This document shows, one piece after another, positions 20,726-38,177 of a stretch of DNA of 64,000 bases. The position numbers and the translations under genes were made by a program. How positions within the stretch are numbered: the first letter of the stretch is position 1; the number at the start of each line of letters is the position of its first letter. The DNA lies in contig NZ_CP060789.1 of NCBI RefSeq assembly GCF_014489575.1, positions 1,674,001-1,738,000 on the forward strand, written 5' to 3'. The stretch comes from Tessaracoccus defluvii. Lineage in GTDB: Bacteria > Actinomycetota > Actinomycetes > Propionibacteriales > Propionibacteriaceae. Below the pieces are notes generated by a model that did no database searches, was not told where the DNA came from, and saw only the letters and a program-made list of their open reading frames with translations.

Positions 20726-20801
20726 GTGGGTATAGCTCAGCTGGTAGAGCACCTGGTTGTGGTCCAGGGGGTCGCGGGTTCAAGTCCCGTTACTCACCCC
20801 A
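20726..20801 (+). tRNA. tRNA-His (anticodon GTG)
   Basis: The cloverleaf has acceptor GTGGGTA/TACTCAC, a D-arm GCTC...GAGC, anticodon loop TTGTGGT (GTG) and a T-arm GCGGG-TTCAAGT-CCCGT. C73 is followed by an encoded CCA (20799-20801). An extra G at 20725 supplies the usual G-1 of tRNA-His. The accessory island begins immediately downstream. Confidence 0.95.
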
Positions 20802-20804
20802 AAC

Positions 20805-20871
20805 GGGTCAGGTGTGAACTTGCGACCAAGGGTCCGCCCTTGGTCGCGGTTCCCACCTGGCCCATTTTCTT
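20805..20871 (+). terminator. long hairpin terminator after tRNA-His
   Basis: An inner perfect 11-bp stem (GCGACCAAGGG / CCCTTGGTCGC, 20822-20832 and 20837-20847) with loop TCCG is extended by an outer imperfect stem (GGGTCAGGTG at 20805 with CACCTGGCCC ending at 20863). ATTTTCTT follows. It should end the orn/tRNA transcript. From here to 21145 no gene is visible. Confidence 0.75.
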
Positions 20872-21145
20872 CGCTTCGGCGGCCCAGCTCAGGGCGTCGG
20901 CATGGAGGCCAGGGATGCTCAGCCCGTCGTACGGGTTGCGGTAGCCGACGCGCACGCCGACCGGTGGCAGGACGTAGTGACCATCTGGCTCAAGTCGCGT
21001 GTCCCACGCTGATCGGCAACGGAGCGACCACCCTCGGCACCCATCTCATTCGGCCACGCCCGGAGAAACCCAACTCAAGCCGTACCTCCGCCGGTATCAT
21101 CGTGGGTGTTGGCCCGCCTGGGCCACAGAGCGAGGGAGGACCAAC

Positions 21146-21346
21146 GTGGCTGAGCCGTGGCTGTCCGCAGACGACATCGCCGCCCACCTCGGGGTCACCA
21201 AAGACACCGTCTACACCTGGATCGCCGAGAAGGCCATGCCCGCCCACAAGGTCGGACGCCTCTGGAAGTTTCAAGCCAGCGAGATCGACGACTGGGTGCG
21301 ACGAGGTGGGGCGGCCGCCGACTCCGAACCCTCCCCGCCGGGGTGA
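21146..21346 (+). CDS. excisionase/HTH_17-type DNA-binding protein
   Basis: This 66-residue protein is essentially one winged HTH: WLSADDIAAHLGVTKDTVYT followed by WI, KVGRLWKFQASEIDDWVR and a short tail. It matches the small MerR-like/excisionase proteins that open many mobile or defence operons. The GTG at 21146 follows GAGGGAGGA with 5-base spacing; an upstream in-frame start would run into the tRNA-proximal terminator region. The SNF2 helicase gene starts 89 bases downstream on the same strand, so it may regulate that operon or be a leftover excisionase. Confidence 0.8.
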   Translation: MAEPWLSADDIAAHLGVTKDTVYTWIAEKAMPAHKVGRLWKFQASEIDDWVRRGGAAADSEPSPPG

Positions 21347-21435
21347 GCGCGTCGCTCACTTCGGGCCGCCGCTGACACTTTGTCGGTGGCACCCCATATC
21401 CTGATCCACTGCCCAAAATCGGAAGGAGGCACCTC

Positions 21436-24400
21436 GTGACAGAAGCTACGACAGACGCAACGTTGACGCTTGCGACGCTGCGTGCGGGCCAGCGCCTCCG
21501 TGGCTTGGTGCCGGGGCAGACGGTCACCCTGATTGCCATCGATCCCATCGACGCCGAGCTGTTCGAGGTCTTCTACCGTGACGACTCCGGTCGCAGCGGC
21601 GCTCGTGCGATCACCGACGCCGACGCGGCACGGTTCGAAGTCGCGGGCGACTTCGACTCTGCTCCCGCCTACGATGCCGACCCTGACGAGTTCCGACTCG
21701 CAGCCGAGGCGCTGCGGATCAAGTACGCGGCGCTGTATGACCCGATGGTCGCGGTCAACAGCTCGGACGTTGACCCGCTACCGCACCAGATTCGCGCCGT
21801 CTACGAGGAACTGCTGCCGCGTATCCCGCTGCGCTTCCTGCTGGCCGATGATCCCGGCGCAGGCAAGACGATCATGGCCGGCCTGTACCTGAAGGAACTG
21901 ATCCTGCGTTCGGACTGCGAGCGGGCAATCGTCGTCGCTCCCGGCGGTCTGGTTGAGCAGTGGCGCGAGGAACTCGGCCAGAAGTTCGACCTGCGCTTTG
22001 AGGTCTTCAGTCGCCAGATGGTCGACGACGCTCAGGGCCACAATGTCCTCGCGGAGCATCCGTTCCTGATCGCGCGTATGGACCAGCTCTCCCGCAGCGA
22101 AGACCTGATCGAGCAACTCGGTGAGGTCACCTGGGATGTCGTGGTCGTTGACGAAGCGCATCGCATGTCCGCCCACTACTCGTCCTGGGCTGGTGAGGTC
22201 GATGAGACGAAGCGCTTCAAGCTCGGACGCCTGCTGGCTGAGACCGCGCACAACTTCCTGCTGATGACCGCGACCCCGCACGCTGGCAAGGAAGAGGACT
22301 TCCAGCTGTTCATGTCACTGCTGGATCGCGACCGCTTCGAGGGACAGTACCGCCAAGGCGTGCACCGCACCGACACCCACGGCCTGATGCGCCGCATGGT
22401 CAAGGAAGACCTGCTCACCTTCGAGGGCAAGCCACTGTTCCCCGAGCGCAAGGCGTACACCGTCGAGTACGAGCTGAGCCCGGCCGAGCGCGACCTCTAC
22501 GAACTGGTCACCGACTACGTCCGCACCGAGATGGGCAGGGCCGAGCGGATCGCCCAGGCCGGCGACAAGAAGCGTGGCAACAACGTCGGCTTCGCGCTCA
22601 CCGTGCTGCAACGCCGCCTGGCCTCCAGCCCCGAAGCGATCCTACGGTCCCTGGAACGACGCCAACAGCGCCTCGACTCGCGGCTGCGTGACATGCAACG
22701 CGCCACCGAAACCGCACGCCTCACCGGCGCAAGCATCGCCGTGCCGGTGGACGACGCCGAGCTCCCAGCGTTCTCGATCGAGGACTTCGAGGACTTCGAG
22801 GACTTCGACGAAGAGACCACCGACGACGAGCGCGCCCAGTTCGAGGCGCAGGCCGACCAGGTCGTCGATCTCGCCACCGCGGCGCAGACCATCCCTGAGC
22901 TGCGGGCTGAGATCGCGATCCTTGAAGACCTCATCAAGGCAGCCCGCCGGGTCCGGCTCACCGATGACGACAAGAAGTGGGTGCAGCTGCGCACCATCCT
23001 CGACGAGCAACTCCTCACTCACGACGGCTCGGGCGAGGCCCGCAAGATCATCATCTTCACCGAGCACCGCGACACCCTCGACTACCTGCAAGCCAAGATC
23101 ACGGCGCAGTTCGGCCGCGCGGACTCGGTCATCACGATCCACGGCGGCACCCGCCGCGAGGACCGGAAGACCGCCCGCGAGCGCTTCACCCACAACCCCG
23201 ACACCGTGGTTCTCCTGGCCACGGACGCGGCCGGTGAAGGCCTGAACCTTCAACGTGCGCACCTGATGGTGAACTACGACCTGCCCTGGAACCCGAACCG
23301 CATCGAGCAGCGCTTCGGCCGCATCCACCGCATCGGCCAGCGCGAGGTCTGCCACCTGTGGAACATGGTCGCCAGAGACACCCGCGAGGGCGACGTGTTC
23401 ACCCGGCTGCTGGCGAAGATCGACCAGATGTCGATCGCCTACAACGGCAACCTCTTCAACGTACTCGGCGACGCCGACGCCTTCCAAGAGCGCTCGCTGC
23501 GTGACCTGCTGATCGAGGCGATCCGCTACGGCGACCAGCCCCAGGTCAAGGCCAAGCTCGACCGCATCATCGACGCCGGTGTCTCTCACGGCCTCGACGA
23601 GATGCTCGCGGAACGCGCCCTCCACCCCGAGATGTTCTCCGCACTCAACCTCGACGAAGTTCGGGCACGTATGGAGAAGGCCCGTGAACGCCGACTCCAG
23701 CCCGGTTACATCGCCGCCTTCTTCCTCCCCGCGCTCACACGGCTCGGCGGGCGTATCCGTAAGCGGGAGAAGGGGCGCTACGAGATCACCCGCGTTCCGG
23801 CCCGCGTGATCGACGCTGCGCGTCGCCTCAACCGATGGGCGCCCGTCGCCGAGCAGTACGAGCGCATCACCTTCGAACTCTCACGGATGCACCCCGACGG
23901 TCTCGCCGATGCCTCCCTGATTGCACCAGGCCATCCGTTGCTGCATGTCGTGATCGAGGCGACCATTGACGACCTCGGCCCCACTCTCAAGCAAGGCACG
24001 GTGCTGGTCGATCGGCGCACCAAGCAGACCGATGCGCCGATGCTGATGTTCAGCGTCGAGCAGCGCATCGAGAATACAGCTGCCGATGCCGACACGGTCT
24101 CTCATCACTTCGACTACCCGCTCCTCGAACAAGACGGCACCGTCACCGTGTCCGCAGCACCCCCGTACCTCGACTACGACCGCCCCGACTCGACCGAGAC
24201 CGAAGCCATCGCTGACATCACGGGCAGCGACTGGGCGCGACAGAACCACGAGAAGCTCGTGCGCGCCTGGGCCTACCGTGAAGGGCTCCAGCCCCGCATG
24301 GACGAGATCAAGACCCGACTCGACATCGAGACCGCGCGCACCCGAACGCAGGTGAAGGATCGCCTGCTGGCCGAGATCAACCACTGGGATCGCGAACACA

Positions 24401-25014
24401 ACCGCCTCGAAGCCCTCGAACGAGCAGGCACCGTCGGTCGGCTCCGCGCCGAGACCGCACTCGTTCGCGCTCGGCAGCTCGATGAGCGCCTGAGCCACCG
24501 CCTCGAACAGCTCGACGAGGCCACCAACCTTGTCGCCGTGCCCGCCGTCATCCGCGGCGCTGCGCTGATCCTCCCCAGTGCGCTTCTTGTGACCGATGCT
24601 GAGCCTGAAGCGCAGACCTTTGCCCGCCAGACCGAGGAAGTCGAGCGGCGAGCGGTCGAATCCGTGCTCGCCGCCGAGCGAGCACTCGGACGCGAACCCG
24701 TCGAGATGCCGCGCAACAACCCCGGCTACGACATCCAGTCCACCGACCAAAGCGGCTTCGTCCACTACATCGAGGTCAAGGGCCGCATCGAAGGCTCCGA
24801 CACCTTCACCATCACCACCAACGAGATCACCTTCGCCCAGACCCAAGGCGACCGGCACCGGCTCGCCCTGGTCGAGGTCTCGACCAGTGGTGCCGCCAAC
24901 GACCAGTTGCGCTACGTGAGCGACGCCTTCACCCACCTGGAGCCATCCGCGACCACCCGCTCCTACAACGAGGTCTGGCGCGACTACTGGGAACGCGGTG
25001 GGCCACCGCGATGA
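21436..25014 (+). CDS. SNF2-family helicase with C-terminal DUF3883 (DrmD-like, anti-phage type)
   Basis: The 1192-residue superfamily 2 ATPase has motif I DDPGAGKTIMAG near residue 140, DEAH near 239 and TATPHAG near 277. The helicase C-terminal domain includes the 594-640 stretch ATDAAGEGLNLQ...GRIHRIGQ. Residues 440-470 are very acidic (repeated EDFEDFEDFDEE). A DUF3883 domain from about 1096 (NPGYDIQS...YIEVKGR) has a PD-(D/E)xK-like EVKGR. This layout is found in DISARM-class and related anti-phage loci next to a methyltransferase. The GTG at 21436 follows GGAAGGAGG. The stop overlaps the ATG of a next gene (ATGA), of which only a stub survives. Codon use is slightly less GC-extreme than in flanking chromosomal genes. 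Confidence 0.88.
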   Translation: MTEATTDATLTLATLRAGQRLRGLVPGQTVTLIAIDPIDAELFEVFYRDDSGRSGARAITDADAARFEVAGDFDSAPAYDADPDEFRLAAEALRIKYAALYDPMVAVNSSDVDPLPHQIRAVYEELLPRIPLRFLLADDPGAGKTIMAGLYLKELILRSDCERAIVVAPGGLVEQWREELGQKFDLRFEVFSRQMVDDAQGHNVLAEHPFLIARMDQLSRSEDLIEQLGEVTWDVVVVDEAHRMSAHYSSWAGEVDETKRFKLGRLLAETAHNFLLMTATPHAGKEEDFQLFMSLLDRDRFEGQYRQGVHRTDTHGLMRRMVKEDLLTFEGKPLFPERKAYTVEYELSPAERDLYELVTDYVRTEMGRAERIAQAGDKKRGNNVGFALTVLQRRLASSPEAILRSLERRQQRLDSRLRDMQRATETARLTGASIAVPVDDAELPAFSIEDFEDFEDFDEETTDDERAQFEAQADQVVDLATAAQTIPELRAEIAILEDLIKAARRVRLTDDDKKWVQLRTILDEQLLTHDGSGEARKIIIFTEHRDTLDYLQAKITAQFGRADSVITIHGGTRREDRKTARERFTHNPDTVVLLATDAAGEGLNLQRAHLMVNYDLPWNPNRIEQRFGRIHRIGQREVCHLWNMVARDTREGDVFTRLLAKIDQMSIAYNGNLFNVLGDADAFQERSLRDLLIEAIRYGDQPQVKAKLDRIIDAGVSHGLDEMLAERALHPEMFSALNLDEVRARMEKARERRLQPGYIAAFFLPALTRLGGRIRKREKGRYEITRVPARVIDAARRLNRWAPVAEQYERITFELSRMHPDGLADASLIAPGHPLLHVVIEATIDDLGPTLKQGTVLVDRRTKQTDAPMLMFSVEQRIENTAADADTVSHHFDYPLLEQDGTVTVSAAPPYLDYDRPDSTETEAIADITGSDWARQNHEKLVRAWAYREGLQPRMDEIKTRLDIETARTRTQVKDRLLAEINHWDREHNRLEALERAGTVGRLRAETALVRARQLDERLSHRLEQLDEATNLVAVPAVIRGAALILPSALLVTDAEPEAQTFARQTEEVERRAVESVLAAERALGREPVEMPRNNPGYDIQSTDQSGFVHYIEVKGRIEGSDTFTITTNEITFAQTQGDRHRLALVEVSTSGAANDQLRYVSDAFTHLEPSATTRSYNEVWRDYWERGGPPR

Positions 25015-25034
25015 CCCACCCCACCGACAGCAAC
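25011..25034 (+). pseudogene. 5' stub of the next operon gene, cut by IS110
   Basis: An ATG at 25011 overlaps the helicase TGA in an ATGA arrangement and opens MTHPTDSNQ before the sequence turns into reversed IS110 transposase DNA around 25028-25040. In related operons the following gene is usually a DNA methyltransferase, but eight or so codons cannot identify it. The exact junction is uncertain by about ten bases. Confidence 0.5.
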
Positions 25035-25841
25035 CAGCCCGACGCCGGTGAGCGCGGCAAAGGCGGCCTTGCTGGTGATCCGGGCTGGGTTGTCACCGGT
25101 GGTGATCAGGAGTTGCGCAGCGGTGACGACTCCGACGCCTTTGGCGGCGAGCAACGCCGGCGCGGCGTGTGCCACGAGGTCGCGGAGGTGGTTGGTGAGG
25201 TCGTCGATCTCCTCGCTGAGGTGGTGATGCCGGCGGGCGAGGGACCGCAACGAGACCGCGGTCGCATGCTCGACACCGTGACTGGGGTGGTTGGGGCGAG
25301 AACGCCGGATCGTGTTGAGCAGGGCCTTCTCGCCGAGCTGGTGCAGCCTCTCCCGCTGCTCGACGGGTGCGGAGACCAGGATCATCGCGATTTGCCGGAG
25401 TACGTTCGCGCGTGCCTTGACCGCCGAGTCGCGGGCCAGGTGAAGGACCCGGATCGACTCGATGGGGCCGTCACTGCTCTTGGGGGTCGGCAACGCTTCG
25501 CCGGCCATAACGACGCGTGCAGCAGTGATCGCATCGAGCGGGTCGGACTTGCCGTGGAGGCGACGCTCGGCACGGTTCGGACGGATCACCTCACGAACCT
25601 CGACCCCGGCGGCGACCGCGTGACGGGTCAGGCCGGCACCGTAGGAGTTCGTGCCCTCGATACCGAACCGGACCACCGCCCCGAAATCGCTGATGAACGC
25701 GAGGATAGCGCGATACCCGGCCAGGGTCGCTGGGAACTGCCGGTCGCCCAGCAACGCTCCGGTCCCGGCATCGAGCACGGCCACGTGATGGGTCTGGGAG
25801 TGTGTGTCTGCCCCGGCGACAACGAGACGCTGGCTTGTCAT
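25030..25841 (-). pseudogene. IS110-family transposase, C-terminus truncated
   Basis: The N-terminal DEDD (RuvC-like) domain starts TSQRLVVAGADTHSQTHHVA and includes FGIEGTNSYG and GKSDPLDAITAARVV. The transposase_20 domain begins (LLAAKGVGVVTAAQLLITTG) but ends at AFAALTGV, where the catalytic-serine region (usually xSSGxxxRxRLxRGG) should follow. About 80-100 residues are missing, so it should be inactive. The ATG at 25841 fits the usual family start. Upstream 25842-26075 is non-coding IS110-side or scar DNA in which I see no gene. Confidence 0.82.
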
Positions 25842-26075
25842 GATGGATGACGCCCTTCCACTTCGAGACGGATCGGCAACGCCGACCGGGCAGGCAGACA
25901 AGACGTTGACGGGGCCTCTAGGCCAGGCTCCTATGAAGTCATGACTGCTCGGTCGGTGCACCTTCGAACGCCCCGTCCCGGAGTGGACAGATCAGGGTAA
26001 GGCACCCGCAGCGCGGACCAGTCAGAGGCAGAGTCACACCCCGGACGGAGCCCTACCATCATCAACGTCAGATGG

Positions 26076-29714: not shown

Positions 29715-29791
29715 GAGTAGCTCAGCATCTGCGAACTGGCCAGCAAGGTCGCCACCGCCCACCACCCAAATATCTTTTCCCTGCGCAGCTA
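29715..29791 (-). pseudogene. C-terminal fragment of the split dihydrofolate-reductase-like (RibD_C) gene
   Basis: On the minus strand the bases encode LAAQGKDIWVVGGGDLAGQF and ADAELL, matching the middle of the intact paralogue at 54882-55469 (DVWVVGGGDLAGQFADAGLL). It continues in frame from the N-terminal fragment at 31350-31661 when the IS630 insertion and one TA copy are removed. The true 3' end is lost at a junction with the ParA fragment. Confidence 0.85.
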
Positions 29792-31349
29792 GTGGCGTGT
29801 CGGTAATGTCACTTTACGGTTGCGTGGGACAATCGAGGCATGGCGAACAGGACAGCCCCAGCATTGGAGTTACGCGACGGCGATCGGAGCGAGTTGGAGC
29901 GCCTGACCCGGGCGGCCACGGTGATGGCCTCCACGGCACAGCGGGCACGGATCGTGTTGCTGGCCGCTGACGGGGTCGGGAACCAGGTGATCGCGGACAC
30001 GGTGGGGGTGTCGCGGCCGACGGTGAATCTGTGGCGGGACCGCTACGTCGAGCGGGGTGTGCGGGGTTTGGCTGATGAGCGCCGCCCGGCCTGACTTCCA
30101 CAACTGGGCCCAGATTTAGTGCCCCGCCAAGGAGCCCCAAATGAGCCAGGGCAGCTCGCACCTGGATCAGGACGAGCAGCATAGGCCTTCCGTCGACCAC
30201 TGCGCCGCTGGTGGAGCCCTGCCGCTGGCTCCGGTTCCGTGCCTCGGCGGACGGACGGTTGTCCGCAGGGCCACTTCGGGGCTGAGAGGGCCCTCTGAAG
30301 GTCAGGCGTACCGACCGACAGGGGGAGAGACACCTGGCTCATGGGGCGCCGCCGCGGCGCCAAGAGCGTCGGAGAGGTCCACCCACCTACCTTGCTGAGC
30401 ACGCTCTGCCCCACTCTGCCCTGCGATTTAGTGCCCCGGTTCTCAACGGGAATCTCTCTTGACTTGGGCATCTGTTCGCCGCCGCGGCGTCCCACGGAGG
30501 GTGTTGTGGAAGTCAGGCCCGGGGCGACCCCGCCGGGTCGACCGGGTTGCGATCCTCGCCGCGACTCTGGACCCGCCTCCGGCCAGCCTGGGGGTGACGC
30601 ACTGGTCGTCTCGGCTGCTGGCGCCGCGTGTGGGGGTCGACCATGCCACCGTCGCGGCGGTGTGGAAGGAGTACGGCGTCCGCCCGTGGAAGGCGGAGTC
30701 CTTCAGGTTCTCCACCGATCCGGAACTGGTGGCCAAGGTCACCGACGTGGTGGGCCTGTATCTCGCACCCCCGGACAACGCGATCGTGTTGTGCGTGGAT
30801 GAGAAGTCGCAGATCCAGGCGTTGAACCGGACTCAGAAGACACTGCCGATGGCGCCGGGCCATGCGGAGCAGCGCACCCATGACTACGTGCGGCACGGCA
30901 CCACCACCCTGTTCGCGGCGTTGGAGGTCGCCACCGGGAAGGTTACCGGCCTGTGTAAGGACCGGCACCGACATCAGGAGTTCCTTGGGTTCCTCAAGCA
31001 TGTGGCGCGTGCCTACCCGACCCAGGAGCTGCATTTGGTGATGGACAACTACGCCACTCACAAGAAGGCCGAGGTCCGCGACTGGCTCGCCGCGAACCCA
31101 CGGATCACGGTGCACTTCACCCCGACCTCCGGATCCTGGCTGAACCTGATCGAGGTCTGGTTCGGGATCATCGAACGCCAAGCCATCCGGCGCGGGACCT
31201 TCACCTCGGTCCGCGACCTCACGGGCAAGATCCGCGCCTTCATCAACGGATGGAACCGACGCAAACACCCATTCATGTGGACCAAAACCCCCGACCAGAT
31301 TCTTGACCGAATCGACCGGAAACGTAAACATGTCTCAACGACAAGCCAC
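29792..31349 (+). mobile_element. IS630-family element inserted in a reductase gene, itself interrupted
   Basis: The element has ends GTGGCGTGTCG (left) and the complement of GTGGCTTGTCG (right) and is flanked by TA at 29790-29791 and 31350-31351, the classic IS630/Tc1 target duplication. It is 1558 bp long because a 427-bp insert sits inside its transposase gene. Removing it restores an open reductase frame exactly. Confidence 0.9.
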
Positions 31350-31352
31350 TAG
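29840..31352 (+). pseudogene. IS630-family transposase, interrupted by a 427-bp insert
   Basis: The N-terminal part (29840-30089) has the HTH region IVLLAADGVGNQVIADTVGV with SRPTVNLWRDRY. The rest (30522-31352) has RPRRVDRVAILAATLDPPPA, the DDE motifs LCVDEKSQIQ, LHLVMDNYATHK and SWLNLIEVWFGIIER, and the C-terminal KTPDQILDRI. Deleting the insert plus one CCCGG copy joins the parts in frame as DERRPGRPRR. The stop TAG is built from the target TA plus the next host base. The copy should be inactive as it stands. Confidence 0.88.
30090..30516. mobile_element. 427-bp MITE-like element nested in the IS630 transposase
   Basis: It has perfect 15-bp terminal inverted repeats CCTGACTTCCACAAC (30090-30104 and complement 30502-30516) and a 5-bp target duplication CCCGG (30085-30089 and 30517-30521). 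Inside, GATTTAGTGCCCCG occurs twice in direct orientation (30113-30126 and 30425-30438), just within the ends. No plausible gene is present, so it must move in trans. The parent transposase family is not identified. Confidence 0.85.
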
Positions 31353-31661
31353 TAGGACGGCCTCTGCGTGAGCCTGCGTCACTGAACCCTGAACAAAGCG
31401 GATATCTGCGCCTTCTGGAACGGGCAGGTCGCGATGAGTGAATACCCAGACCGGCTGCTCGTAGCCCCACTCATCTTGGTTGCTCAGTAGCCACTCATAC
31501 GTGGAAGCACCCATGAAGAGAGCGCCAATTCCTTTCACGAACTCTGGGTATGCCATGGGGCCTTCGAAATCGAAGTCCTGCTTGAACAGCCACTCAAGGG
31601 AATGCTCGGGGGTGGCGATGAACCCGTCGAGGCTTGAAGCAGTATAGAAGTGGGTGGTCAT
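31350..31661 (-). pseudogene. N-terminal part of a dihydrofolate-reductase-like (RibD_C) gene, split by IS630
   Basis: The minus strand starts TTHFYTASSLDGFIATPEHS and continues through EGPMAYPEF, GASTYEWLL, WVFTHRDLP and QGSVTQAHAEAVLL, after which the IS630 end begins. The family (YyaP/YwjB-like) uses NADPH to reduce pterin- or flavin-like substrates. An intact paralogue of similar sequence lies at 54882-55469. The ATG at 31661 follows AAAGGTGCG. Confidence 0.85.
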
Positions 31662-31733
31662 GGGAGCGCACCTTTCTTGCGATGTTCTGGAAATCAGGGT
31701 CAGAGTTCTGCATCATTGAGCGCAAGCCGCAAG

Positions 31734-32315
31734 TTATATGGATTCCTCGTCCCTTCGATGCCAGGCAAACCAGGCGACCACACAGAAGGCTGCGAGCATG
31801 ACGAGGTCAGCGATGAACGCAACTGGGACAGATCGAGATATCCGCGCAACCGGGAACGCAGCCGCCGCAAATACCAACAACACAGCGCTCCAGCGGGGCG
31901 TGAGCCCGGTCCACCAATGCATTGCGCCCAAGGACAAAAGCGCGACCGGAAAGAGCGGTCCGGCCAGAATCAGCACAATAGCCACCGGGAGTGGGTAGAT
32001 GTCGAAAGTAGCTAGCGAGCGAAACTCGGTGATACCGAACACACTCTCAAACACGCCTTGCAGCCCGAACGCGACGGTGCCGAACATGCCGATCAGCACC
32101 AGAAGCATCCATAGCCCCGACAGAAGGGGAAACCGGGGGCGGAGGGCGTTGTATTCCCCAATGAGTCCGTACATCCAGGGCACGGCGGCTATGGCAATGA
32201 GAAGCCCGCCGGTCACTCCATAGTGTCCGTCGATCCAGAAGAGCGGTGACAGGGCGAACAGCAAGGGTCCGATAATCAGACCAAGGCTTTCCAAACGGCG
32301 TACCACCATGCCCAA
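31734..32315 (-). CDS. polytopic membrane protein, function unknown
   Basis: The product has 193 residues and about six hydrophobic segments, for example LIIGPLLFALSPLFWI, GGLLIAIAAVPWMYGLIG, LWMLLVLIGMFGTVAFGL, VAIVLILAGPLFPVALLSL and a final LVMLAAFCVVAWFAW. The C-terminus is HRRDEESI. The general layout resembles small DUF4386-type actinobacterial membrane proteins, without a sure match. Base composition is less GC-rich than the chromosome. It lies downstream of the helicase gene (27-base gap, same strand) and could belong to that operon. Confidence 0.6.
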   Translation of the reverse strand: MGMVVRRLESLGLIIGPLLFALSPLFWIDGHYGVTGGLLIAIAAVPWMYGLIGEYNALRPRFPLLSGLWMLLVLIGMFGTVAFGLQGVFESVFGITEFRSLATFDIYPLPVAIVLILAGPLFPVALLSLGAMHWWTGLTPRWSAVLLVFAAAAFPVARISRSVPVAFIADLVMLAAFCVVAWFAWHRRDEESI

Positions 32316-32342
32316 AGAGTAACACTGCCAAAGCTCTGGCGC

Positions 32343-35300
32343 TTAGTCGTCTGAGGATGCCTTGATGCTGAGGCCTGGTTGGGCGATGACGGTCGAAATG
32401 CGGGGGAACAGTTGGGGGGCTTGCTGCCGGATGCGGAACAGCGCTTCTCGATCGCCGATCTCAAAAGGGCTGAGACCAGTGCGCATGGTGTCCGCCTTGG
32501 CGCGGCGGTCAAGATGCTCCAGCAACGGAAGGGCTCCGTTATCGCGCCATCGCGCACCTCGCATCGCTTGCCCACATACCTCGTACAGGTCGCTGAGGCG
32601 TGAGCCGGCTGTGGGCTTCGATGAGTACTTGCAGTGCACCAGCGTGACAAGAAGATCGCCCTTGTCGACGCGGATACCAACAAGGTCGGCGGCTTCGCCA
32701 GCGCGGTCGTCGTCGATGAGGATATCGAAAGTCTGGTCTTGCGACAGGAATCGGGCCATGTACGCCTGAATAGAGTTCGCCTTGCGGTCGGTCCCTTGCG
32801 ATTCCACAGTGATATCAACACCATTGCCCACCCAGTCGAGGGCTCGGAGCTGCTCGCGCGGGTATGGAGCCAGCTCGGTCCGTGGCGCGAGGAGCCGATC
32901 GTCGCCTGTCACCATCCGATCTCCCGACAGGAAGAGGGTTGGCTTGTGGTTGTTGAGCCAGGTCGAGAAGGGCGTCCTCGCGTCTCGCCAGCCGATAACC
33001 TCGGCATCATCACCCTTTGCGCTGTAGTGCAGACCGTGCGAGCCGAACTGCCCCTCGTAGGCCAACTCCCAGCCGGGAGTCATGATCGAGAAGCGGAGCG
33101 GGCCGCTGGTGCCAAAGTCGTCGATCCTGAACTCGGCATCGGTGAGGAGCACGCTTGAGTCCTTGTGGCTAAGTCTGGAGGATGTTCCGTTGCCTAGGTA
33201 CAGATTCCAGGGCCACTCCATCGCCAGGACGGGGAAGCCTGGTCGTTCGCTTACGTCGGTCGGGATGATCATGGAGCGGAAGAGCGAATGAATATCGACG
33301 CTGCCGTCGTTCAGCTTCGCGCCTTGCTGTCGGCACCAGGTGCGCCACTCGGCAAGGTTCGGCGCCGTGCGCATGGACCAGAACCTTCCCGAGAGCGATG
33401 CTGCGATGGTGACGCGCTCGCCTTCCTCGAACGCTTTCGCCGCGACGTGGGTGTTGGACTTGTGCGTGCGTTCAGCCTCCGTGAGCGCTGTCTCCACGTC
33501 ACTGCCGACGTGCATGGAGAAACGTTTGTCGCGATCGCGGGCATCGAGAAGGCCGATGTTGGTGGGGATGAGCCTGTCCAGCTTCGAGAAGACCTTGAAG
33601 GTGTCGTATCCGTTGAGTGGTCTCGGCTCGTGGCCGAGCACTGCCTCGACGAGGTCGTCGAGACTGTGCTTCGTGTCAGAACAGTGGATGTAGAGGATGC
33701 CTTGCGCGCGATCAAGGTACATGGCGAGGAGGGTGTAGTCAGTGGCGCGAAGCGACGGGATGTCACCCCATCGGAGGTTCGAGATGGTCTCGACCACGAA
33801 CCACGCAATGGTGTTGTCTGCGTTCACGCTGATGAGGTCGTCCAGCACGGCGTCTCCATAGACTTCGCGTGCTGCGAGCGGGTCCCAGTCGATGGTGGAT
33901 GTCGCGAAGGCCTTGGCGCTCATCTTGGGTTCCAAGAGGCCGACTGGCACATCCGGAGGGTTGTCAACGAACGACGCCTCGAACTCACTGACCTCGTTTG
34001 CACGTTCAGTGGCGCGTTCGGTGATGTCGCTCAGCACCTTGTCCCAGTCAGGGTCTTCACGAAGAAGGAACCGCATCGGCGAGAGCGCGTGACGTGGGTC
34101 CTGGCGCACGTAGACGCTCGCCCTGCCAATCGGGAGTGGAGAAGATGTCCTCGCGAGCCGACCGATGAGTTGCACCATCGGGCTTAGCGATCGGTGTGCG
34201 TCGTGAAATGCCCCTACCTTCAGCGTCGGTAGGTCGAATCCCTCGCCAAGCATGTCGACGCAGACAATCACACGGCTCGTCCGGTCGCGCATCGCCTTGA
34301 GCGTCTCGGCTCGGCGGCGTGCTGGCATCGAGTCGTAGATGACCTTCGGCGTGAGCTCGGGAGCGATGCGTGAGTAGAGCGCATGAACTTCATCCGCCCT
34401 CGCCTTCGACCCCACCCGTGCCAGAAGCAGATGCTCGTGGCCGGCGACCAAGTCATCTCGAAGCCGCGAGACTGCGGCGAGTGCCAATGCCTCATCGTCA
34501 TCATCCAGATCGAGTACCGCAGTGAAGTCGATGGTGCTGAAGTATCCCTCCTTCTGAGCTTCCCGTAGCGGGAAGCGGAAGATGACGCGGCCGGGCAGTG
34601 TCAATCCGTCGCGACGGAACGGTGTCGCCGTGAACAGAAGCGTTGGCCGGTTCGCGAATACACGGATGATCTCTGTCCATGTTCGAGCCGGCGCATGGTG
34701 CGCCTCGTCGACGAGCAGGTGTGTGAAGCTCTCGAAGAAGGCTGCGCGCACGTCAGGCTCGTTGGCGTGGATCGCGTTGGGTGTTGCAACGACGACGTTC
34801 GCTGCCTCGACGAAAGCCCTCGCTTCGGCACCATCGGTGAACCGGCCCTCTACCCGGCCGACTCTGGGGCGCAACGCGCGGTGGTCGACGATGCCTTCGA
34901 CCTGAAGGATGCCCAGGGTCTCGAACTTGCTCGCTATCTGATCGCGAAGTGCAGTGGAGGGAACGACCACCAGCCCACGTTCGGGCCGTTGTGCCACGAG
35001 CCACGCCAGCATCGTCTCTGTCTTGCCTGTGCCTGTCGGCATGACCACGATCCCGGGCTCAGACAGGCCGGACGACTGGTAACCGACGATGGAGTGAAGC
35101 GCTGCGATCTGCGGTCGTCTCAGGCTGCGGGGTAGGTCATGCGCAGTAAACCCAATGGCACCTTCGAAGGATTGGATGACCTCGCTCGCCTGAGCCGCCT
35201 CTCGACTACCGCCCCATTCGATCTGGGCGTTCGGGGAGTGATCTCCAGGGAGCCTCGCCGCGAGCAGCCCATCAGTCGGAAGATCAGCAGTGCACGTTGT

Positions 35301-35453
35301 AGGCCACTGTCCGAAGGGTGTCTTCACCACTTCGATGCCTGGCTCGGTCTCAAACACCTCAATGTCGTCGCACGTCGGGACCAGCAGTTGACGGACTACG
35401 TTCTTGCCCGCGACGTGCGGCGTCGCCCAGACATCCTCGGTGCGGTACTCCAC
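32343..35453 (-). CDS. DEAD/DEAH-box helicase with nuclease-like C-terminus, candidate anti-phage protein
   Basis: The 1036-residue superfamily 2 enzyme has Walker A VVMPTGTGKTETMLAW near 141, LLVDEAHHAP near 249, the motif III segment LLFTATPFRRDG, and motifs V/VI VCVDMLGEGFDLPT and QLIGRLART near 434. The C-terminal third has no domain I can name apart from a late segment, EAADLVGIRVDKGDLLVTLV followed by HCKYS near 918. This is arranged like a PD-(D/E)xK nuclease core with His in place of Glu. GTG at 35453 is favoured because AGAGAGAGG lies 5-6 bases upstream; TTG at 35483 is an alternative. It is the last large gene of an operon with DUF2188, XRE/ImmA and unknown genes. Confidence 0.82.
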   Translation of the reverse strand: MEYRTEDVWATPHVAGKNVVRQLLVPTCDDIEVFETEPGIEVVKTPFGQWPTTCTADLPTDGLLAARLPGDHSPNAQIEWGGSREAAQASEVIQSFEGAIGFTAHDLPRSLRRPQIAALHSIVGYQSSGLSEPGIVVMPTGTGKTETMLAWLVAQRPERGLVVVPSTALRDQIASKFETLGILQVEGIVDHRALRPRVGRVEGRFTDGAEARAFVEAANVVVATPNAIHANEPDVRAAFFESFTHLLVDEAHHAPARTWTEIIRVFANRPTLLFTATPFRRDGLTLPGRVIFRFPLREAQKEGYFSTIDFTAVLDLDDDDEALALAAVSRLRDDLVAGHEHLLLARVGSKARADEVHALYSRIAPELTPKVIYDSMPARRRAETLKAMRDRTSRVIVCVDMLGEGFDLPTLKVGAFHDAHRSLSPMVQLIGRLARTSSPLPIGRASVYVRQDPRHALSPMRFLLREDPDWDKVLSDITERATERANEVSEFEASFVDNPPDVPVGLLEPKMSAKAFATSTIDWDPLAAREVYGDAVLDDLISVNADNTIAWFVVETISNLRWGDIPSLRATDYTLLAMYLDRAQGILYIHCSDTKHSLDDLVEAVLGHEPRPLNGYDTFKVFSKLDRLIPTNIGLLDARDRDKRFSMHVGSDVETALTEAERTHKSNTHVAAKAFEEGERVTIAASLSGRFWSMRTAPNLAEWRTWCRQQGAKLNDGSVDIHSLFRSMIIPTDVSERPGFPVLAMEWPWNLYLGNGTSSRLSHKDSSVLLTDAEFRIDDFGTSGPLRFSIMTPGWELAYEGQFGSHGLHYSAKGDDAEVIGWRDARTPFSTWLNNHKPTLFLSGDRMVTGDDRLLAPRTELAPYPREQLRALDWVGNGVDITVESQGTDRKANSIQAYMARFLSQDQTFDILIDDDRAGEAADLVGIRVDKGDLLVTLVHCKYSSKPTAGSRLSDLYEVCGQAMRGARWRDNGALPLLEHLDRRAKADTMRTGLSPFEIGDREALFRIRQQAPQLFPRISTVIAQPGLSIKASSDD

Positions 35454-35513
35454 GTCGAGCCTCTCTCTTCTTCGCCTATCCAAGGAACGCGACTGCCAAC
35501 AAGTGCGCCGCGA

Positions 35514-35752
35514 TCACCCCTTGGATGACCTCGGGCGTTCCCAGGTGCGATCGTGTCTTGCGCGCGGATCGTCCCCTTGAGCGAACGGACCTGCAACTCG
35601 CCCCCTCCGTCGTTGCCGAGGATCGTACGGGCGCGCTGAATGCCTTCGACCTGTGTGGAGGTTACGGCGCTGGCACGATCAGCTCCTGGCTTCCGTACCT
35701 CCCAGTCGCCGTCGCTTCGACGCTGGACTACTCGCTTGTTGGGTTCGGTCAT
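35514..35752 (-). CDS. DUF2188 small protein, probable undercall near its end
   Basis: The frame encodes RVVQRRSDGDWEVRKPGADR, TSTQVEGIQRARTILGN and GGGELQVRSLKGTIRAQDTI, the complete DUF2188 pattern of about 70 residues. As read, the frame then runs on to 35396, overlapping the helicase start with low-complexity sequence. Restoring one G at about 35540 gives the ending APGERPRSSKG and a stop at 35514, a normal 79-residue DUF2188 protein. Function is unknown; members often sit in small accessory operons. It starts 33 bases after the XRE/ImmA gene. Confidence 0.7.
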
Positions 35753-35785
35753 GATCTTTCCTTTCTCGGATGGGACTGCTGCCCA

Positions 35786-36943
35786 CTACTTCCTGTTGTC
35801 TGGATGGTCTTTCACCAGCGTCAGCTTGGGCTGGGGATCGTCGATGCCAGCTAGCCGTCGTATGTGACGAGGCGTCATCTGGAGGTCCTCCGCGACCTGC
35901 GTCAGCGGCACACCTGCCTGGTCAAGCAGCTCAAGCGCGGACTTCAGGAGTTCCGGCCGCTCGCCGGGATAGTCGTGAACCGGCATAGGTCGCCGAGCGA
36001 TCCCATTCAGCGTGATGTACGCGCGACGGGCTGTGGACTCCGAGATAAGATCAAGCTCCCGGGACCGGAAGATCAGCGAGTTGATGGAGACCCCCCACAG
36101 CTGGCTAAGTTCCTCGTACCGGTTGAAGTTGATGCGCCGAGGCAACTGGTCACGGATCGCATCGCGAGGAGTGAGGAACTCGGCCGCGAACATGTCTGCC
36201 TGCCGCTCAAGTTGGCTATCTGTTCCTTGCCGGCCGTGATGAAGGACGATGTGTCCAAGTTCGTGCGCGGCCGAGAACCGATGCCGCATAACATCGTTGG
36301 CCTTGTCTGGGGTCAGCACGATCATGGGACGTGGCAGTGCGGTGGTCGAGAAGGCGTCGATCCGGCTCTTCTCGTCAAGTGCGAGGTCTTCCTTCATGGA
36401 GAAGAAGACTGTCAGGATGCCATGCTGTTCAAGCTCGTACACAAGGTGATTGATCGGCACGGTCCCGAGCATCCAGTGTTGACGCATGGCTCGCGCTGCT
36501 GTCACGGGGTCGGGCACATCCGATGAGTCGACCTGCGCCCAGGTAGGGAGGTCTAGATCAGGGAACTCCACGCTCTCTTCGAGGTAGCAGCTGAGTTCCC
36601 AGGCTTGTTCGACATACGCAGTCGCTTGCTGCTGTTGCGTGACAGTCGTTGAACGGAGTCGACGGAACGACGCTTCAGCGATGTCCACCTGGACGCGTGG
36701 ACGCCCGAGCGCAAAGAAGCCCGGCGGAACACCGAGCGCCGTGGCTAGGGCAGCGACCGTCTCTGCGCGGGGACGCACCTCTCCACGCTCGTACTGCCCG
36801 ATCGCGGCGGCCGATACGCCAACCTTGCGATGAAGGTCAGCCTTGGACATCTTGCTGATCCGACGAGCCTGAGCTAGCCGCGCTGGGTCAAACATCCTGG
36901 CAACCGCCGCTAGGTCAGCGTCGCCTACGTACTCAGTCGGCAT
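35786..36943 (-). CDS. XRE-family regulator with ImmA/IrrE metallopeptidase domain
   Basis: The 385-residue protein has an N-terminal XRE HTH (LAQARRISKMSKADLHRKVG, then VSAAAIGQYERGEVRP, residues 20-75). An ImmA/IrrE zinc-peptidase domain follows with RFSAAHELGHIVLHH (HELGH near 229) and a later QADMFAAEFLTP carrying the third ligand region. In phage and ICE systems such proteins cleave a repressor or antitoxin on a damage or infection signal. The C-terminal 90 residues include another helix-turn-helix-like segment (VPLTQVAEDLQMTPRHIRRL). It starts 3 bases after the preceding gene, so the two are cotranscribed. Confidence 0.88.
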   Translation of the reverse strand: MPTEYVGDADLAAVARMFDPARLAQARRISKMSKADLHRKVGVSAAAIGQYERGEVRPRAETVAALATALGVPPGFFALGRPRVQVDIAEASFRRLRSTTVTQQQQATAYVEQAWELSCYLEESVEFPDLDLPTWAQVDSSDVPDPVTAARAMRQHWMLGTVPINHLVYELEQHGILTVFFSMKEDLALDEKSRIDAFSTTALPRPMIVLTPDKANDVMRHRFSAAHELGHIVLHHGRQGTDSQLERQADMFAAEFLTPRDAIRDQLPRRINFNRYEELSQLWGVSINSLIFRSRELDLISESTARRAYITLNGIARRPMPVHDYPGERPELLKSALELLDQAGVPLTQVAEDLQMTPRHIRRLAGIDDPQPKLTLVKDHPDNRK

Positions 36944-36946
36944 GGG

Positions 36947-37693
36947 TCAGTTGCCTTCCTGCTCGGACCGCCGCTGGCGCAGCTTCACCGAGATACGCGG
37001 ACGCTCGCTGCCGTTGAACCCGGCGACAGGCTTCAACATGGTGTGCGGAGCATCGACCGAAGAAGGCGTGCGCTCATAGGTGAGCCGCTCGGGGTCTGCA
37101 AACTCCAGGTACCGGCCGTTCAGTCGCGCAGGTGCGAAGTAGACCGTTCCCACACCCTGCGGCGTACTGCTGTAGTAGGGAACGAAGAGCGTAGTGCGAG
37201 GCACAGCCAGTTCGACGTGGCTGAGCGCATCCTCAAGCGATGCAGGCTGATCTCCTTCGAGAACGTCACTGATGTCGAAGAGCCCGGGGTCCGAGTACTT
37301 GACGTTGCTCGTCTTCGAGAGGAGTTCACGGCGCGAGTCAGGCAAGTAGCTGAGCCGAACACGGCGAACGTTGCGCGGCATCTGCTTGCCCACCCGTTGC
37401 GCGAAGATGAGTGTGTTGCCGACGAAGGTCAGCATCCGTCGGGTCGTCGGGACCTTTGCCTCCCGATAGGTAGGTAGGTCGGACAGAAGTGTGCGGAGCT
37501 CCTTCTGCACACCACGGGCCATGCCAGCCCCGTACACGTCCTGGTCCCCATCGGGATCGTCATATGCTGCCTGAGCGCGGGCCGAGCGATCCTGGCTGCG
37601 CTGGATCGCGGTCGGGATTCGTTCGCGGAGTGCCGCGAGCTCTGCTGGCTGGAACTCGCTGCGCCAGTCGTCGCTGTCGTGTTGCTGAGCCAC
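36947..37693 (-). CDS. hypothetical protein, first gene of the ImmA/helicase operon
   Basis: The protein has 248 residues from the GTG at 37693 (AQQHDSDDWRSEF), chosen for GGAGG at 37699-37703. A longer start at 37729 is possible but lies in the promoter region. The N-terminal third is helical and charged, and the rest appears as beta-strands (RMLTFVGNTLIFAQRV, RRVRLSYLPD, TTLFVPYYSSTPQGVGTVYF). No signal peptide or membrane helix is present. I do not recognise a family. Tight linkage to the XRE/ImmA gene suggests it could be a sensor or the protease target. Confidence 0.6.
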   Translation of the reverse strand: MAQQHDSDDWRSEFQPAELAALRERIPTAIQRSQDRSARAQAAYDDPDGDQDVYGAGMARGVQKELRTLLSDLPTYREAKVPTTRRMLTFVGNTLIFAQRVGKQMPRNVRRVRLSYLPDSRRELLSKTSNVKYSDPGLFDISDVLEGDQPASLEDALSHVELAVPRTTLFVPYYSSTPQGVGTVYFAPARLNGRYLEFADPERLTYERTPSSVDAPHTMLKPVAGFNGSERPRISVKLRQRRSEQEGN

Positions 37694-37719: not shown

Positions 37720-37740
37720 ACTCTAGCACACAACTTTAGT
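37720..37740. promoter_or_regulatory. imperfect inverted repeat ahead of the ImmA/helicase operon
   Basis: ACTCTAG-CACACAA-CTTTAGT (five of seven arm positions symmetric) lies about 27 bases upstream of the GTG of the first operon gene, in an AT-richer patch. It is a candidate operator for the XRE protein, by position only. Confidence 0.3.
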
Positions 37741-37814
37741 ATCACGCGGCAATCCGTCAGAGTTAGCACCAACAGGATGGCTGCCGAGGTCACTCTTCAC
37801 TCGGCTCAACACCC

Positions 37815-38177
37815 TCAGTCTGTCAGATCGGACCCGGCGAGTCGGTCAAGACGCGAATCGTCGGTGTCATCCACGATGAGTCCAGCCTCGACCAACGCCA
37901 CCCGCACCGCCTTGCGATCCACGCCCATCCGGCGTCCGATCGCCCGCATCGAGACGCCCGCACGGGCGAGGCGCACGGCCTCCGCCTTCTCGTCGATGCC
38001 CAGCCCTGGTCGGCGACTCGGGACGTTGCGTCGGCGGAGGTGTGAGAACACTGTGGCGCGGTGGATGCCGTACCTCTCAGCAAGAGCCTTCACACCCATC
38101 CCGGCCAGGTAGTCACCGACGAGCGCGTCCACCTCAGCGGCGGTGAGAAAAGTTTGAGCCGTCTCGACAGTCCTCAC
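37815..38177 (-). CDS. small protein with two helix-turn-helix segments (recombinase/resolvase-type)
   Basis: The 120-residue protein has one HTH at YLAGMGVKALAERYGIHRAT followed by VFSHLRRR and a second at AVRLARAGVSMRAIGRRMGV with DRKAVRVAL. The pattern resembles the C-terminal DNA-binding region of Hin-type serine recombinases or standalone relatives found near mobile DNA, but no catalytic resolvase domain is present. It lies on the same strand as, and 121 bases before, the ImmA/helicase operon at the island edge. Confidence 0.6.
   Translation of the reverse strand: MRTVETAQTFLTAAEVDALVGDYLAGMGVKALAERYGIHRATVFSHLRRRNVPSRRPGLGIDEKAEAVRLARAGVSMRAIGRRMGVDRKAVRVALVEAGLIVDDTDDSRLDRLAGSDLTD

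Follow-up and report, generated by a model that had tools for sequence, protein, structure and literature searches.

A conserved XRE-ImmA gene pair in Tessaracoccus defluvii followed by an exchangeable defence-type gene

Four genes, which we refer to as A, B, C and D in the order in which they are read, lie in line within the window, a 64,000-nucleotide stretch of the Tessaracoccus defluvii genome. The question raised by this locus is whether they constitute one dedicated system, in which cleavage by the protease B frees or activates the helicase D, as the preliminary description proposed, or whether its parts are separable. The features considered are as follows.

Gene A: 36947-37693, minus strand, 248 aa; candidate toxin or partner of B
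Gene B: 35786-36943, minus strand, 385 aa; XRE HTH fused to an ImmA/IrrE (M78) metalloprotease domain (Pfam, PADLOC, NCBIfam)
Gene C: 35537-35752 (the conserved 72 residues; open frame to 35396), minus strand; DUF2188, PF09954, E 5.1e-14
Gene D: 32343-35453, minus strand, 1036 aa; SF2 helicase (DEAH) with an RdgC/CENP-L-like middle and a PD-(D/E)XK-like tail
Promoter-like element: 37720-37759, minus strand; upstream of A, candidate operator of B
Small HTH protein: 37815-38177, minus strand; upstream of A, Pfam HTH_23/HTH_38, weak PADLOC match to mad1 (E 5e-4)
Insertion or replacement: 29717-32346, no strand assigned; took out the 3' end of D and contains a DDE_3 transposase gene (30459-31352, plus strand)

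All four genes are on one strand, as first described, and the gaps of 3-60 bases reported between them hold for A-B (3 nt) and B-C (33 nt) but not for C-D, where the open frame of C overlaps the start of D. The start of A that gives 248 residues is backed by its relatives; a longer frame of 260 aa begins within the promoter-like element. The base composition is below that of the host, as had been suspected, with a GC fraction of 0.60-0.63 over about 30-38 kb and 0.65-0.67 over most of 20-31 kb, compared with mostly 0.69-0.73 outside. The proposed defence or mobile setting is likewise borne out by genes for HmaA and transposases within the window and by TrwC relaxase genes beside relatives of the cassette (L010 and L123 by Pfam; L118, L120 and L126 by homology or a start motif). 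HmaA, of the HMA defence system, is encoded at 21436-25014 on the plus strand (1302 bits in PADLOC, with almost the entire protein covered); the proteins flanking it, at 20757-21404 and 25011-25850, have no PADLOC or Pfam match.

Pfam assigns HTH_3 and Peptidase_M78 with a HELGH motif to B, in agreement with the XRE-ImmA/IrrE fusion originally noted. PADLOC identifies it as RmrA (E 2.2e-89, residues 9-364), and it scores 138 bits against the NCBIfam Spr1629 family, under the cut-off of 335. Judged from these profile matches, B falls in the RosmerTA antitoxin/Spr1629 family, as an RmrA/Spr1629-type antitoxin-repressor. The earlier statement that no named system could be matched therefore stands for the gene order as a whole, but not for B. 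Gene A was described as unrecognised and remains without a match in Pfam, PADLOC or NCBIfam, toxin models included, although it has homologues (90 at E<=1e-3, A itself counted). Its predicted fold bears a weak resemblance to restriction endonucleases; column counts over 88 sequences revealed no conserved (D/E)-x-K.

A is sparsely distributed. A single-sequence query located it in one of 394 genomes of the class, its own, and a 30-row alignment query in 10 of 391 genomes of its order and 10 of 198 of its family, these being the same ten with its own genome included. Around a second genome, G394, it is present in 6 of 398 genomes of that family and 3 of 396 of that order, G394 being counted in both. 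We read 22 A-B loci (the window, L010, L091, L099, L102-L106, L118-L128, L138/L135 and L139/L134), leaving out L116, which has only a fragment of A (E 3e-12) on a short contig. B, down to 45% identity, directly follows A in all 22, although these represent fewer independent cases, as the window, L121 and L122 are 98-99% alike and L125, L127 and L128 are 92-95% alike. A search starting from B (E<=1e-60) gave eight places in 7 of 199 genomes, each with A upstream; at the two most distant the match to A is weak (A-profile E 3.5e-12 and 4.3e-6), and one of these two B matches was reported with an internal TAG.

Because A and B are adjacent in every locus read, their arrangement is not a matter of chance. 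The reading that the four genes are chance neighbours sharing only their location in a defence island, which draws on the presence of HmaA and the transposases, is thus unlikely, and is further disfavoured by the retention of the A-B(-C) order in seven genera of the window's own family and also in the family to which G394 belongs. It also sits poorly with the conserved element just upstream of A, whose consensus is TGACgGA.Tc.tG.....aaCTaAAGTt..GTGcTA...T. Scored leave-one-out, the element outranks every one of 500 shuffles at each of the 16 distinct loci compared, with shuffles that ignore relatedness and a set that excludes the near-duplicates L121, L122, L127 and L128 as well as L138 and L139, and in which five loci were anchored by eye. 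The core occurs once in the 3.86 Mb of its own genome at no more than one mismatch. The element may serve as promoter, as operator, or in both roles.

Behind the pair the gene content differs from locus to locus, with five kinds of next gene across 15 of the 22 loci.

D: window, L010, L120-L123 (6/22)
DUF6119/TIGR04141: L102, L119, L125, L127, L128, L138 (6/22)
AAA ATPase like OLD, GajA and AriA (OLD/Gabija-like), PADLOC best match mad3: L118 (1/22)
AbiD, 0.3 kb behind B: L104 (1/22)
80-aa gene, NYN gene and type I methylase genes: L103 (1/22)
No effector recognised (from annotation or inspection by eye only): L091, L099, L106, L124, L126, L139 (6/22)
Contig end: L105 (1/22)

The genes of L119 and L128 were assigned from their translations and 82-92% DNA identity to L125, with no Pfam scan of their own. 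The position at which the loci diverge is well defined. The window and L118, from the same genus, are 89% identical over 2.8 kb, a stretch that begins 627 bases ahead of A and stops where C stops, after which the next genes are unrelated, and identity to L102, L119 and L125 also stops at the end of C (2172-2180 from A). At the other side, the block shared with L118 and L120-L123 extends into the small HTH gene upstream of A. When L118, with its OLD-like gene, is compared with L120 and L123, which have D, homology returns after the effector at 69-81% in a stretch containing a TrwC relaxase gene. What the loci have in common is the A-B pair, frequently accompanied by C, and behind it a gene that can be exchanged. 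Near the cassette and the TrwC genes of L010, L118, L119 and L123 there is also a recurring small protein, about 114-173 aa long, whose motif resembles FMRRYMPTNILLDxIRTRRGLKWG; that of L123 has no significant Pfam match.

These patterns bear directly on the dedicated four-gene system. The A-B-C-D order on one strand is present in six of the 22 loci, and the HE[LIV]GH motif is intact in B and kept in all 120 homologues listed, of 901, both consistent with such a system; however, 15 of the 22 loci have unrelated effectors or none recognised behind A-B. Nor does the same gene order usually recur around D in other genomes: among the best 80 of 430 genome matches to D, 79 show no A, although eight of the 80 (L014, L032, L033, L036, L038, L041, L053, L066) have less than 2.2 kb upstream, too short for all of A, and records near the window are possibly not among the best 80. 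L010 is the sole locus of these 80 with A and B, and also C, beside D. On plasmids, 130 records matched D; at the seven of these loci that we read, neither A nor B accompanies it, and C precedes D in one of the seven (L003). With D mostly without A, and A-B mostly without D, we consider it very improbable that the four genes form a dedicated system in which cleavage by B frees the helicase.

The third gene encodes, as first proposed, a DUF2188 protein, and corresponds to the PADLOC candidate PDC-S16. C is found in 12 of the 22 A-B loci (12 of 20 by HMM) and is absent from ten; where present, it always precedes D, a DUF6119 gene or the OLD-like gene (12/12). It stops soon after its conserved part in eight of these loci and runs on in four (the window and L120-L122). 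In L120 the C profile matches in two different frames, which may reflect a frameshift. In L119, C is fused in frame to B. Because of this fusion, and because the sequence of C is kept while the effector changes, we regard C as a probable adaptor of B.

Pfam identifies ResIII and Helicase_C in D, as expected for the DEAH helicase of the preliminary description, although its 1036 residues prove to be an incomplete protein: all 19 aligned relatives extend about 26 residues further at the C-terminus. The window is 98.98% identical to L121, with homology ending at 32347 and resuming at 29716; the 3' end of D has thus been replaced by the intervening 2.6 kb, which sits next to D and carries the DDE_3 transposase gene. 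The D of the window is truncated and may be dead. In L122, from the same genus, a near-identical cassette has its D broken by inserted sequence. PADLOC models match only the helicase part of D, at about residues 114-477 (among the matches listed, 25 of a total of 26). For the tail, the impression of a PD-(D/E)xK shape with His for Glu has held up: an alpha-beta-beta-beta-alpha-beta core of PD-(D/E)XK type is predicted, and E894, D933, H950, K952 and Q972 (residue numbers count from the TTG at 35483) are each present in 82 of 82 sequences. The third strand has no acidic-x-Lys; it has H-x-K in 82 of 82 and never D or E. The model and the invariant residues together support a PD-(D/E)XK-like core, and D is predicted to be a DNA-unwinding and probably DNA-cutting enzyme. 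At 17 loci, mostly alphaproteobacterial (L006, L049, L051-L059, L061-L063, L070, L072, L073), a conserved large gene lies upstream of a D-type helicase, and that of L006 is annotated as PD-(D/E)XK nuclease family.

Because genes of several defence-type families alternate behind a conserved A-B, we favor, with a probability of about 0.5, the interpretation that A-B(-C) forms a toxin-antitoxin-like head of RosmerTA type, which brings along an interchangeable defence effector, here D, and probably controls it. This builds on the conserved A-B pair and promoter-like element, the exchange at the C end and the modelled core of the D tail, whereas the mechanism that follows is our inference. The HTH domain of B would bind the element upstream of A and hold the operon low, and B would keep A inactive until a signal arrives. 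Infection would then alter B through its protease domain, the signal in published relatives being ssDNA or DNA damage, such that the operon is derepressed and A released. D would then load onto the invading DNA and cut it.

Several observations count against a controlling head. C is missing from ten of the loci, the element upstream of A could be a promoter only, none of the toxin models in Pfam, PADLOC or NCBIfam picks up A, and the truncated D of the window may be dead. A pure controller would also not need the six loci with no recognised effector. These six are the main evidence for the main rival, in which A-B is a free-standing RosmerTA addiction pair that stabilises a mobile element bearing a stacked defence gene, with no link to C or D; a self-sufficient toxin-antitoxin pair fits them, one of the six sits behind conjugation genes on a plasmid, and the relaxase genes beside the cassette are in keeping with it. 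An addiction pair does not readily account for the restriction of C, where it follows B, to loci that have D, DUF6119 or the OLD-like gene, nor for a swap at the end of C that leaves the effector close, from overlapping to about 110 nt away. We regard the addiction pair as a serious contender, albeit at less than even odds.

A more tentative variant of the control head, which we hold somewhat unlikely, is that A-B-C is a portable immune-control head under which whatever effector lies behind the C end would fall. A, restriction-endonuclease-like but lacking the usual catalytic pair, would sense or bind DNA together with B, and mobile elements would exchange effectors while keeping the switch. 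If the head does control the gene behind it, the uncharacterised genes in this position, DUF6119/TIGR04141 above all, become testable defence candidates and the A-B pair a marker for further effectors. The window and L118, from two genomes of one genus with 89% identical heads and unrelated effectors, constitute a natural swap experiment.

Known systems resemble parts of this arrangement. RipAB of pneumococcus is described as an operon in which a toxin is paired with an XRE-ImmA antitoxin (PMC12795458), RosmerTA as an ImmA hub combined with different toxins (PMC10440598), and CapH+CapP and CapK+CapS as controllers situated in front of diverse immune operons (PMC13373217). As in RosmerTA (RmrT/RmrA), including RipAB (Spr1630/Spr1629), A-B places a protein of the XRE-ImmA antitoxin type next to a partner gene, partners being variable in RosmerTA, and A takes the place of that partner by position, directly upstream of B. 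It differs in that the family libraries (Pfam, PADLOC and NCBIfam) reveal no relation of A to known toxins, and in that A-B is often trailed by C and then a swappable defence-type gene. CapH+CapP and CapK+CapS likewise place an HTH protein (with a peptidase in CapH+CapP) ahead of diverse immune genes, but the repressor and peptidase of CapH+CapP are separate genes whereas HTH and M78 are fused in B; A is a constant partner here, and the similarity of B to CapP is weak (E 1.5e-4). D resembles helicase-nuclease defence proteins with ResIII and a PD-(D/E)XK tail, which join an SF2 helicase to a nuclease-like domain and are found on plasmids and islands, although D has H-x-K in place of (D/E)-x-K and an RdgC/CENP-L-like middle. 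C belongs to DUF2188 (PDC-S16) and is here in line with an XRE-ImmA protein. In the open-licence literature we found no earlier report of an A-B(-C) arrangement with a swappable effector, and no relevant report on DUF6119/TIGR04141.

Some homologues of B carry an additional extension. A fused two-unit repeat (of the form RSAISGRYISxAAAARHPxTSVTE) is present in L099 and L103 and among P0231-P0309; such a SAISG/SAITG repeat, which is different from C, ends 25 of the 120 B homologues listed (of 901), in addition to those of L099 and L103. There is a Met at the junction, and the repeat might be made separately as a small protein.
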